Shown: in pieces, positions 33,735 to 56,607 of the stretch
Numbering within the stretch: position 1 is the first letter of the stretch
How the letters are laid out: every line of letters begins with the position of its first letter
DNA from: a virus
DNA length: 57,385 nucleotides
Reading direction: 5' to 3' (one strand)
Virus record (IMG/VR): IMGVR_UViG_3300021182_000018
Span: 1-57,385 of that record
The notes under the pieces: generated by a model
What the model was told of the DNA's origin: nothing
Seen by the model: the letters and a program-made list of their open reading frames with translations, nothing else
The model's database searches: none
Translations under genes and position numbers: made by a program

Positions 33735-34208
33735 ATGAACAACTTGAAGCTCTACAATAAACTGATAGAACATGCCAAGGAACAAAACCGAAAGAAAGGC
33801 TCAGACTATTTAGAAAACCATCACATCATTCCTAAGTGTTTGGGTGGGTCTAATAAAAAAGAAAATTTAGTTTTGTTAACTGCTAGAGAACATTTTCTTG
33901 CACATAAATTATTATCAAAAGCCTATCCTGAAAATAAAAGTTTGTTCATGGGCTATCATAAGATGTCTCTAAGTTCTTCCGAAAATCAACAAAGAATAAA
34001 ATTAAGTTCTAAAGAATACGAACAACTAAGAATTAAAAATGCATATTTCAACACTGGAAAATTAAATTGGAAAAGTCGCCCTGTAAAAATATATGATAGA
34101 GTTTTCGAAAGTGTTTGCTTGGCATGTATCGAAATGAGTATACCAGACACTACGATGAGAAGAAGGCTAAATAAAAAGATGAACGGATATATTTACCTTG
34201 ACACATGA
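33735..34208 (+). CDS. HNH homing endonuclease
   Basis: 157 aa, free-standing. HNH core ENHHIIPKCLGGSNKKENLV, then LLTAREHFLAHKLLSKA supplies the remaining metal-binding histidines. The C-terminal segment KIYDRVFESVCLACIEM...RRRLNKKMNGYIYL is a NUMOD-like helix-turn-helix for target recognition. Located at the divergence point between replication and structural genes. Its last four codons form the -35 of an early promoter. Confidence 0.88.
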   Translation: MNNLKLYNKLIEHAKEQNRKKGSDYLENHHIIPKCLGGSNKKENLVLLTAREHFLAHKLLSKAYPENKSLFMGYHKMSLSSSENQQRIKLSSKEYEQLRIKNAYFNTGKLNWKSRPVKIYDRVFESVCLACIEMSIPDTTMRRRLNKKMNGYIYLDT

Positions 34209-36412: not shown

Positions 36413-36420
36413 GATAAATA
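36413..36420 (+). promoter_or_regulatory. Late promoter GATAAATA
   Basis: Followed by AAAAGAGG ribosome-binding site (36426-36433) and ATG at 36440. The T-rich tail of the preceding terminator (36394-36401) can pair weakly with this ribosome-binding site, with the promoter in the loop. Confidence 0.7.
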
Positions 36421-37214: not shown

Positions 37215-37243
37215 TTTACAACCTAGATTAAATTTGTTACAAT
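37215..37243 (+). promoter_or_regulatory. Early promoter of a short transcription unit
   Basis: TTTACA (37215-37220), 17-nt spacer containing AGATTAAATTTG, TACAAT (37238-37243). Same design as the primase promoter. Confidence 0.8.
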
Positions 37244-37249
37244 AGATTT

Positions 37250-37331
37250 GAAGTAAGGAGTTTATTCTTTATTAGCTGTTTTTCTCCTCCTATAAAACGA
37301 TCTGAAGTTTACTTTGGGTCGTTTTTCTTTT
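37250..37331 (+). ncRNA. Candidate small RNA of about 80 nt
   Basis: Delimited by the early promoter at 37215-37243 and the terminator at 37294-37331. No ATG-started ORF fits. It contains AAGGAG near its 5' end and CTCCTCC about 25 nt later, which can pair with each other. May be a regulatory RNA or an attenuated leader of uvsW. Confidence 0.45.
37294..37331 (+). terminator. Intrinsic terminator
   Basis: AAAACGATC (37294-37302) pairs with GGTCGTTTT (37317-37325), 9 bp with one G-U, followed by a T-rich run. Confidence 0.8.
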
Positions 37332-48133: not shown

Positions 48134-48152
48134 GATAAATACTTCAAAAGAG
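48127..48152 (+). promoter_or_regulatory. Late promoter within a ribosome-binding-site hairpin, 173-aa gene
   Basis: CTCTT (48127-48131) can pair with AAGAG (48148-48152), the start of the AAGAGGG ribosome-binding site, with late promoter GATAAATA (48134-48141) in the loop. Stem is only 5 bp. Confidence 0.45.
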
Positions 48153-50430: not shown

Positions 50431-50438
50431 TATAAATA
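50431..50438 (+). promoter_or_regulatory. Late promoter TATAAATA (exact T4 consensus)
   Basis: Followed by AAAAGAGGA ribosome-binding site and ATG at 50461. Only exact consensus octamer noted in the window. Confidence 0.8.
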
Positions 50439-50460: not shown

Positions 50461-51297
50461 ATGGATTTTAAAGACCTTGCTAATAAGATTTTAAACGAAG
50501 GAGCCGAAACTCCTAAAGCAAAAGATGTAGATTCTGTAGAAAGTATTCTAGAATCACTTGACCAAAAAATGAACGAGGAAGCTTCTTCAACATCTGACGA
50601 AACTTCTGACGAAAAAGAATTTAAGAAAGATGCTAAGAAAGCTGCCGCATATGTTAAGTCAGATCCTAATGAGCTTGTAGTAGATATGGGCAAGGGAATG
50701 AAAGCTCCTAAAAACGTAAATGTTTCTCCAAAGTTTTTAGGAAAGCTGAATTATATGCCTAATCCTTTGGAACATACTCCTGGAACTACTTTCAAACACG
50801 TTAATGAAGGTGTTGTTTATATTAGAACCGAAGGCGAGAATCTTTGGGAATCTCTAGTATCTGATGGAAAGCCCGGAAAGAATGCTTATCCTTCAGGTGG
50901 TGGTGGACTTGGGTTGAGAGATGTTAATAAGGCTATCTCTGATTCTACTGGTGGTGTTTCCGTATACGTTTCCGGAGCTACTTCAGGAACTTTGTTTACT
51001 AATAATCTTATCGTTAACAACATCATTTATCAAACTACTATCACATCATCCTCCGTTCAGTTGGATCCTTCATATGATAATCAGGTTGTTATAAATGCTT
51101 CAGCGGTAACAATTAAACTTCCTAATCCCCCTATTACTGGTCTTGAATATACATTTTTCAATAGAAACTTTGCATATACTCTTTCCGCCGCACAGTCAAT
51201 CTATTATAATGGAACAGTTGCCAATACTCAGTCTATAGTTTCTGGAACAAATATACTATTTTGCGCATATGATGGTTTGGTCTGGGCTGCAAAATAA
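50461..51297 (+). CDS. Head protein with targeting leader and fibre-like C-terminal domain (278 aa)
   Basis: Leader MDFKDLANKILNE then G (L-N-E at 11-13) fits a prohead protease site, followed by an acidic scaffold-like stretch to about residue 65. A middle region (PNPLEHTPGTTFKHVNEGVV) and a glycine hinge SGGGGLGL lead into a beta-rich C-terminal domain (VINASAVTIKLPNPP, ending AYDGLVWAAK) that looks like the tip of phage fibre proteins. Position between 20 and the 67-like gene suggests a head component. I do not know a named homologue. Confidence 0.55.
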   Translation: MDFKDLANKILNEGAETPKAKDVDSVESILESLDQKMNEEASSTSDETSDEKEFKKDAKKAAAYVKSDPNELVVDMGKGMKAPKNVNVSPKFLGKLNYMPNPLEHTPGTTFKHVNEGVVYIRTEGENLWESLVSDGKPGKNAYPSGGGGLGLRDVNKAISDSTGGVSVYVSGATSGTLFTNNLIVNNIIYQTTITSSSVQLDPSYDNQVVINASAVTIKLPNPPITGLEYTFFNRNFAYTLSAAQSIYYNGTVANTQSIVSGTNILFCAYDGLVWAAK

Positions 51298-51338: not shown

Positions 51339-51375
51339 AAACCCTCTATCATAAATACTTTGAAAGAGGGTTTTT
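51339..51375 (+). promoter_or_regulatory. Promoter-in-hairpin switch (terminator-like) before the 53-aa core gene
   Basis: AAACCCTCT (51339-51347) pairs perfectly with AGAGGGTTT (51365-51373), followed by T residues, so it can terminate or attenuate upstream transcripts. The late promoter CATAAATA (51350-51357) is in the loop and the ribosome-binding site GAGGG is in the 3' arm. Late transcripts starting near 51363 would lack the 5' arm. Confidence 0.8.
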
Positions 51376-51379
51376 AAAT

Positions 51380-51541
51380 ATGTCTAAGAAAATTATCGAA
51401 ATGGTTAACGAAGGTGATTATGTCTCATTAAAGCCAGTTCTTGAAGAAATGGTTGCTAAAAAAATTGTAGAAAAGATTGGTAAGAAGAAAGAAGAATTTA
51501 TCGCAGACCTTAAAGAAAAACGGGCCGGAAAGAAAGGATAA
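51380..51541 (+). CDS. 67: Small prohead core protein, gp67-like (53 aa)
   Basis: Frame MSKKIIEMVNEGDYVSLKPV ... FIADLKEKRAGKKG. T4 gp67 occupies the same place between 20 and 21 and has a comparable N-terminal helix (I-x-x-N-D-L...A-x-x-L-F-x-E-x-M-A). The acidic tail of T4 gp67 is missing here and replaced by a basic end. Assigned mainly on position and helical pattern. Ribosome-binding site GAGGG is in the switch hairpin. Confidence 0.6.
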   Translation: MSKKIIEMVNEGDYVSLKPVLEEMVAKKIVEKIGKKKEEFIADLKEKRAGKKG

Positions 51542-52328: not shown

Positions 52329-52357
52329 TTGACTATTAAGATTAAATATGATAAAAT
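52329..52357 (+). promoter_or_regulatory. Early promoter of the GIY-YIG gene
   Basis: TTGACT (52329-52334), 17-nt spacer containing AGATTAAATATGA, TAAAAT (52352-52357). It is the only early promoter inside the late structural block, so this endonuclease can be made early. Confidence 0.82.
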
Positions 52358-52383
52358 TATTTTAAGAAATAAAGGAGTTCGTC

Positions 52384-53865
52384 ATGGCTAAAAAGAAAAT
52401 ATGTGGAATATATAAATTTACGAATAATATTAACGGAAAATTATATATTGGACAAAGCAATGATGTTTGGAAAAGATATAAATCACATAGTCATTTTAAT
52501 GATGATTGTCCTTTTCATAAAGCTATTAAAAAATATGGATTTGAAAATTTTTCATTTGATATTTTAGAAGAATGTGTTCCTGAAAGATTAGATGAATTGG
52601 AAATAAAATATATAAAGGAATTAGATTCAACCATACAAAATAGAAATGGCTATAATTGTGATGGTGGTGGGCAATTTTTTCAAGATTATGATTCATCTAA
52701 AGAAAAATGGAAGGCGCATGCGAATTCTGATAAAAATCCTTGGAAACAAAAAGATGGTGCCTGGAGATTAGGTGGAAATAATTACAATGCTAGAAAAGTT
52801 GCCGACAATACAGGAAGAATCTGGAGTTGTGTAAAAGAATGTGCAGATGCGTTAGGAATAAAATCGCATTTTCATGACATGCTTGGTGGTTTAAAACCAA
52901 TGAGTAGAACTATAGTTCATTTAGATTTACATTATGAAGATGATATATATTGGGTCCCAAAACCTATAGACGAATTGGAACGATTATCAAAAATAGAATA
53001 TAAAGGAATGAATACGCCAAACAATAAAGAAGTATTTGATAGATATGGAAATAGTTTAGGTTGTATTATAGATGTCGCTAGAAGATATAATATTGTTCCA
53101 TCAACATTTTATAATATGATGAATGGAACTTTAGATTTTCCAAAAGCCTTGGCATTATTAGATTTTCATATATTTTCCGAAAATTATATACCAAAACCAA
53201 TAGATGAAATTGAAAAATATTACAATGAAAAAGAATTAGAGAAATATCATGTTGCTAGTAATGATGGAAGATTTTGGAAATATGTAGAAGATGCTGCAAA
53301 AGAATTAAAAATACAATATAATAACCTATGTTCTATGTTATCTGGAAGAATTAGATTTAGAAAAGATTTGTATTGTTTAGATTTACACTATACAAATAAA
53401 GAACATATAAACAAAAATAAAGAAGAATTAGAAAAAGAATATAATGAAATAGAAAGAATTGTTTATAGAGGAGGAGAATCACCAAGAGCAAGAAAAGTTG
53501 CCGACAATACTGGAAGAATTTGGGGATCGATTGGTGAAGCTGCTAAAGACTTAAAAATGAATACATCAGATTTAACATCTACGTTAACTGGCAAATTAAA
53601 AACAAGAAAAGATTTATATTACTTAGATTTACATTATGCTGATGATATAAATTATATTTCGAAAACTCCTGAGCAAATATTAGAAAAGATTAAACAAGAC
53701 AATCCTAAAAAAATTGTTTATGATAATTCTGGAAGATTTTGGATGTCTGCTAAAGAATGTTCTAGAGAACTTGAAATATCTTCTAGTAATCTTTTAATTT
53801 ATCTTAAAGGAGAACGAAAATTTCCAGACAAAATCAAACACTTAGGTCTTCACTACAAACCCTAA
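52384..53865 (+). CDS. GIY-YIG homing endonuclease with repeated NUMOD-type modules
   Basis: 493 aa. N-terminal nuclease: CGIYKFTNNINGKLYIGQS (GIY...YIG), catalytic R at VWKRYKSH, then the KYGFENFSFDILEEC and ELEIKYIKELD (metal-binding Glu) segments. Residues about 135-493 hold about five repeats of the type RKVADNTGRIW...A-x-x-L...LYYLDLHY, like NUMOD1/DNA-binding modules. Strong AAAGGAG ribosome-binding site. Free-standing insertion between genes 21 and 22. Fewer TTTCGAAA-type words than neighbours, consistent with foreign origin. Confidence 0.88.
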   Translation: MAKKKICGIYKFTNNINGKLYIGQSNDVWKRYKSHSHFNDDCPFHKAIKKYGFENFSFDILEECVPERLDELEIKYIKELDSTIQNRNGYNCDGGGQFFQDYDSSKEKWKAHANSDKNPWKQKDGAWRLGGNNYNARKVADNTGRIWSCVKECADALGIKSHFHDMLGGLKPMSRTIVHLDLHYEDDIYWVPKPIDELERLSKIEYKGMNTPNNKEVFDRYGNSLGCIIDVARRYNIVPSTFYNMMNGTLDFPKALALLDFHIFSENYIPKPIDEIEKYYNEKELEKYHVASNDGRFWKYVEDAAKELKIQYNNLCSMLSGRIRFRKDLYCLDLHYTNKEHINKNKEELEKEYNEIERIVYRGGESPRARKVADNTGRIWGSIGEAAKDLKMNTSDLTSTLTGKLKTRKDLYYLDLHYADDINYISKTPEQILEKIKQDNPKKIVYDNSGRFWMSAKECSRELEISSSNLLIYLKGERKFPDKIKHLGLHYKP

Positions 53866-55000: not shown

Positions 55001-55034
55001 AAGAGTTCTGATTTAATTATCAGGACTCTTTTTT
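55001..55034 (+). terminator. Intrinsic terminator between genes 22 and 23
   Basis: AAGAGTTCTGAT (55001-55012) pairs with ATCAGGACTCTT (55019-55030), 12 bp with one G-U, 6-nt loop and a T run. Gives gene 23 an independent transcript. Confidence 0.9.
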
Positions 55035-56515: not shown

Positions 56516-56571
56516 ATTTGTAAAAATATTGTAAAACTTTGTAACATCTTCGTGATTTAGGGGCGAACATG

Positions 56572-56579
56572 CATAAATA
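56572..56579 (+). promoter_or_regulatory. Late promoter CATAAATA
   Basis: Precedes the HNH gene at 56608 with GGAGA ribosome-binding site at 56596-56600. Confidence 0.6.
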
Positions 56580-56607
56580 AAAGAAAGCTAAACATGGAGA
56601 ATTGAAA

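Follow-up and report, generated by a model that had tools for sequence, protein, structure and literature searches.

In an uncultured phage, the start of a small gene among the head genes is preceded by a hairpin with a candidate late promoter in its loop and the ribosome-binding site (RBS) in its 3′ arm. This locus raises the question of whether it works like the promoter-in-loop leaders of phage T4 and, if so, which RNAs are silenced. A reading of the sequence alone had proposed such a device. We analysed it in the virus record IMGVR_UViG_3300021182_000018, all 57,385 bases of which are called the window here.

The 53-aa gene and its predicted late promoter

The window comes from an uncultured phage, distantly related to T4, with T4-type head genes (Table 1). 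The best matches of its capsid and portal proteins among deposited phages, mostly cyanophages, are just about 29–34% identical. A GIY-YIG endonuclease gene with its own early-type promoter occupies the protease/scaffold interval (52329-53865), inside the late region, and a Transposase/DNA-invertase-like gene (103-720; phrog_6620) lies at the edge of this T4-type phage record.

The small ORF of 53 aa is 98% identical in L008, and five of the six codon changes between the window and L014 are synonymous, a pattern that points to coding constraint. It had been called a core gene. The genome position agrees with that name, as T4 gene 67 (pip), also short, fills the same slot between portal and protease. 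The sequence match to gp67 was not significant by BLASTP, and no Pfam or PHROG hit was found. T4 gene 67 further differs in starting at the end of gene 20, without a leader hairpin.

Table 1 Features of the hairpin leader and neighbouring head genes in the window.
Feature	Position	Strand	Remark
Portal gene	48696
Late promoter TATAAATA	50431..50438	+	Nearest upstream of the hairpin; likely source of long RNAs entering it
278-aa gene	50461-51297		Upstream neighbour of the 53-aa ORF
5′ arm AAACCCTCT	51339..51347	+	Only in RNAs coming from upstream
Late promoter CATAAATA, T4-type, in loop	51350..51357	+	Invariant in three strains
Predicted late transcription start	51363	+	From T4 late-promoter geometry (PMC2988020); leader of 17 nt without 5′ arm
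3′ arm AGAGGGTTT	51365..51373	+	Invariant in three strains
RBS GAGGG	51366..51370	+	9 nt before ATG
T run	51371..51375	+	Three of five T within the stem
53-aa ORF	51380..51541	+	Between portal/278-aa gene and head protease; slot of T4 gene 67
Head protease gene	51604		phrog_207; Pfam Peptidase_S77
Scaffold gene	53973		T4_CASP
Major capsid protein gene	55166		phrog_138

The hexamer TAAATA was located 20–38 nt upstream of 11 of the 22 plus-strand genes (0.6 expected for random positions) versus one of the 49 minus-strand genes. Because the box alone is no more frequent in the window than expected by chance, the evidence for promoters lies in its position. In T4 late promoters, an 8-bp box precedes the transcription start by about one helical turn (PMC2988020), and the placement of TAAATA in the window agrees with this box-to-start geometry. 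CATAAATA is a credible T4-type late promoter by its sequence and placement.

The hairpin and predicted masking of the ribosome-binding site

The leader reads AAACCCTCT-ATCATAAATACTTTGAA-AGAGGGTTT-TTAAAT-ATG. As the sequence-only reading had it, the two arms form a perfect 9-bp stem, CATAAATA is enclosed by both of them, and GAGGG lies inside the 3′ arm; the end coordinate given for the hairpin, 51375, takes in two T of the T run beyond the stem. The RNA folds at -14.6 kcal/mol (z -3.6), and none of 200 shuffles was equally good. In the minimum free energy structure, three extra pairs (TCA/TGA) form past an A·A mismatch and leave an innermost loop of 9 nt (TAAATACTT). A search of Rfam gave no match.

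According to the folding prediction, GAGGG in the long RNA with the 5′ arm has an unpaired probability of 0.01 and an opening cost of 12.9 kcal/mol. In the short RNA from an assumed start at 51363, the predicted values are 0.61 and 0.6 kcal/mol. Folding prediction, sequence and comparison support the view that read-through RNA would hide the RBS, and an RNA started at the promoter, lacking the 5′ arm, is predicted to leave it free. The ten other late leaders of the window, in their long form, cost 0.2–7.1 kcal/mol, and the 51339 leader has by far the strongest masking of the eleven. With the same code, opening costs in kcal/mol were 12.8 for mobE, 12.1 for I-TevII, 11.2 for I-TevI, 9.4 for segB, 3.3 for T4 gene 9 and 1.7 for T4 soc, whose SD sequence was 0.75 unpaired. 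Because soc is a literature case and costs so little, the calculation is an imperfect predictor that misses some literature cases.

In the proposed mechanism, late RNA polymerase would start at about 51363 and make an mRNA with GAGGG single-stranded, from which the 53-aa protein would be translated. RNAs derived from upstream would carry the 5′ arm and fold into a 9- to 12-bp hairpin, and translation of the 53-aa gene only would be poor. Ribosomes translating the upstream ORF would terminate about 42 nt short of the 5′ arm and so would not open the hairpin. The 53-aa head gene would then depend on its own promoter, even within a continuously transcribed late region.

Alternative explanations and the likely source of long RNAs

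Such a hairpin could also arise by chance, if an RBS leader that recurs in this phage happened to be complementary to an upstream stretch rich in A and C. When the downstream part from the promoter on was held fixed, 1.3% of dinucleotide-shuffled and 0.3% of random upstream stretches masked the RBS equally well. These leader-wise values (p 0.003–0.013) become about 0.03–0.14 after correction for the eleven leaders tested, which is not negligible. The 3′ half of the hairpin is moreover a shared late-leader sequence, nearly the same at 48134, and hairpin loops as a whole show no enrichment of TAAATA over permuted hexamers. Against chance speak the masking itself, the strongest of the eleven leaders by far, and the retention of the 5′ arm. 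Two related contigs carry the hairpin. In one (L006/L009) it is identical, and 5 of the 42 columns directly preceding it differ. In the other (L014), C51346T (C-G to U-G) and A51348T (A·A mismatch to U-A) both preserve pairing and yield 13 continuous pairs. The structure is thus kept across three closely related strains, with just two informative substitutions. At 48134 and 56572, weak hairpins with marginal chance probabilities lose their arms in relatives, and the 51339 hairpin stands out for this reason. In light of this evidence, we consider a chance origin quite unlikely.

The hairpins at 48134 and 56572 were not retained as further cases, nor was a weak hairpin at 36413, which was not significant. 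Behind the capsid gene, the leader of a gene for an HNH homing endonuclease (56547-56600) forms a weaker hairpin with CATAAATA in the loop that masks the RBS (p 0.005/0.018); its 5′ arm is present in L016 and missing in L009, L013 and L014. A genome-wide class of promoter-in-loop hairpins was rejected, as TAAATA loops were not enriched over permuted hexamers in 11 genomes. They were also not clearly enriched in an arm-only sample from IMG/VR, a biased sample in which about half of the TAAATA loops came from a prior TAAATA search. Searches for further relatives with gene 21, the 53-aa ORF, the portal and the capsid gave the same few contigs, and a capsid search of genome contigs gave none. A leader-pattern search of genome contigs gave chance-like matches in unrelated bacteria and archaea.

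The T run had also been credited with terminating read-through. This part was not supported: the hairpin scored -10.5 (d'Aubenton-Carafa score), below the threshold, and its L014 version scored -6.8. Among the other hairpins scored, those at 55001, 56485, 36370, 37296 and 57354 gave +18.1, +19.8, +3.8, +11.1 and -20.7, respectively. The terminator scans, which had a loop limit of 8 nt, did not call the 51339 hairpin. Some weak terminator activity may nevertheless be present. The hairpin might even serve the late unit upstream as its intrinsic terminator: hairpin and T5 would end the transcripts from 50431, and the overlap with the next promoter and RBS would reflect compaction. Its A-rich/GC/T-run layout fits this explanation, and no other terminator-like hairpin was called from the 278-aa gene to the promoter. 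Arms of the form AAACCCTYT...ARAGGGTTT are common among viral hairpins, and three cyanophage-like contigs (L019, L022 and L024) each have TAAATA in the loop of a strong terminator-like hairpin. The long loop, the T residues taken up by the stem, and a score far from the +3.8 to +19.8 reached by all but one of the phage's five scored terminator-like hairpins argue otherwise, and we regard a terminator function as unlikely. The hairpins of the three cyanophage-like contigs (L019:1012-1041, L022:5895-5924 and L024:2698-2727) lie 3′ of a MazG-like gene, and the sequence behind them differs between L022/L019 and L024.

The inverted repeat is centred on the promoter and could, as a DNA operator, bind a repressor. 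A precedent is I-TevI, which represses its own late promoter by binding there (PMC2988022). C51346T in L014, however, breaks the DNA palindrome and keeps a G-U pair in the RNA, and the arm takes in the RBS and runs into the neighbouring T. An operator is thus a very improbable explanation. To the reading as a T4-style promoter-in-loop leader we assign a probability of roughly 0.7.

The origin of the long RNAs bears on what such a leader would be for. The early-type promoter pattern (TTGAC-N6-GATTAAATATGATA-N2-AT, with at most three mismatches) had just three plus-strand matches, at 34198, 37215 and 52329. The last is downstream of the hairpin. The two upstream ones are more than 14 kb away from it, and terminator-like hairpins follow them at about 36369, 37294 and 37400. 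Because these promoters are far upstream with terminators behind them, early RNA is unlikely to reach 51339. In the region 37215-37325, the early-type promoter is followed about 50 nt on by a strong terminator-like hairpin, which suggests a possible early RNA, about 80 nt long and containing CTCCTCC. Unlike in the T4 precedents, no early or middle promoter feeding long RNA into 51339 was seen; the pattern searched for was of the early type. Any long RNA would probably be late as well, started at 50431 or farther upstream, and no terminator-like hairpin was called between the 50431 promoter and 51339.

The promoter map therefore does not appear to support the T4 rationale, the silencing of early transcripts, for this hairpin. 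In a purely late region, the hairpin might instead free one head gene from the read-through of its late neighbours and so set late-gene stoichiometry, not early/late timing. We offer this use as a tentative and rather doubtful suggestion; in the reviews consulted, none of the T4 genes listed was found to be credited with it. The purpose, that the 53-aa gene should go untranslated from its neighbours' messages, is the least certain step of the proposal. Should the long RNAs prove to be late, the device would adjust the relative amounts of late proteins and not timing alone.

Comparison with leaders of T4 and other phages

To look for like sites, we scanned for perfect stems with TAAATA in the loop, an SD sequence in the 3′ arm and an ORF behind. 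The scan found six sites in T4 (soc, I-TevII, segB, gene 9, gene 26 and I-TevI), five of which are in published lists, and recovered mobE in the Aeromonas phage Aeh1. In the window, the 51339 hairpin was the one site found. A stricter count gave 1 in the window versus a mean of 0.07, and 4 in T4 versus 0.86, for 15 permuted hexamers of TAAATA composition in the full arrangement of loop hexamer, 3′-arm SD and downstream ORF. The one other window count of this control, ATAAAT, overlaps TAAATA within ATAAATA.

Literature cases of the leader device are e, soc, 49, I-TevI, segB, mobE, 25 and 26 (PMC3014915, PMC2988022), and what the T4 cases have in common is a gene carried by long early or middle RNAs (PMC2988022). 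The sequence-only reading had invoked the logic of e, soc and I-TevI. Sequence, folding and comparison agree with it as to design; the silencing of early or middle read-through was not supported here. As at 51339, the T4 leaders of I-TevI, I-TevII and segB have a late promoter between the arms, the RBS in the 3′ arm and a short late RNA without the 5′ arm (PMC2988022), and their RBS opening costs are similar (9.4–12.1 kcal/mol). They belong to homing endonuclease genes with early/middle read-through, whereas the gene here is a small head-region gene amid late genes. The Aeh1 mobE leader shares the core arms CCCTCT/AGAGGG, a late-type TAAATA at the loop and a high opening cost (12.8), but has a longer stem (13 bp) and precedes an endonuclease gene beside nrdA. 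A similar hairpin lies directly before an annotated endonuclease gene in cyanophage S-SSM7 (L226:286-318; NC_015287.1, 167285 on); TATAAATA spans the end of its 5′ arm and the loop, and its 3′ arm contains GGAG.

The leaders of T4 e and soc follow the same logic in non-endonuclease late genes, and soc is likewise a small head gene. The e leader differs: it has a second late promoter, and its stem is imperfect, for which reason the perfect-stem scan missed it. Both genes are reported on early/middle read-through transcripts, a feature in which the 53-aa gene probably differs. The 51339 leader is, by folding models and comparative analysis, a probable further case of this T4 device, at a gene in the prohead-core position. 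The device is already known from several T4 genes, and what is new is the gene where it is found; its presence here would extend a T4 post-transcriptional device to a head-region gene and to an uncultured lineage as distant in capsid and portal as the present one.
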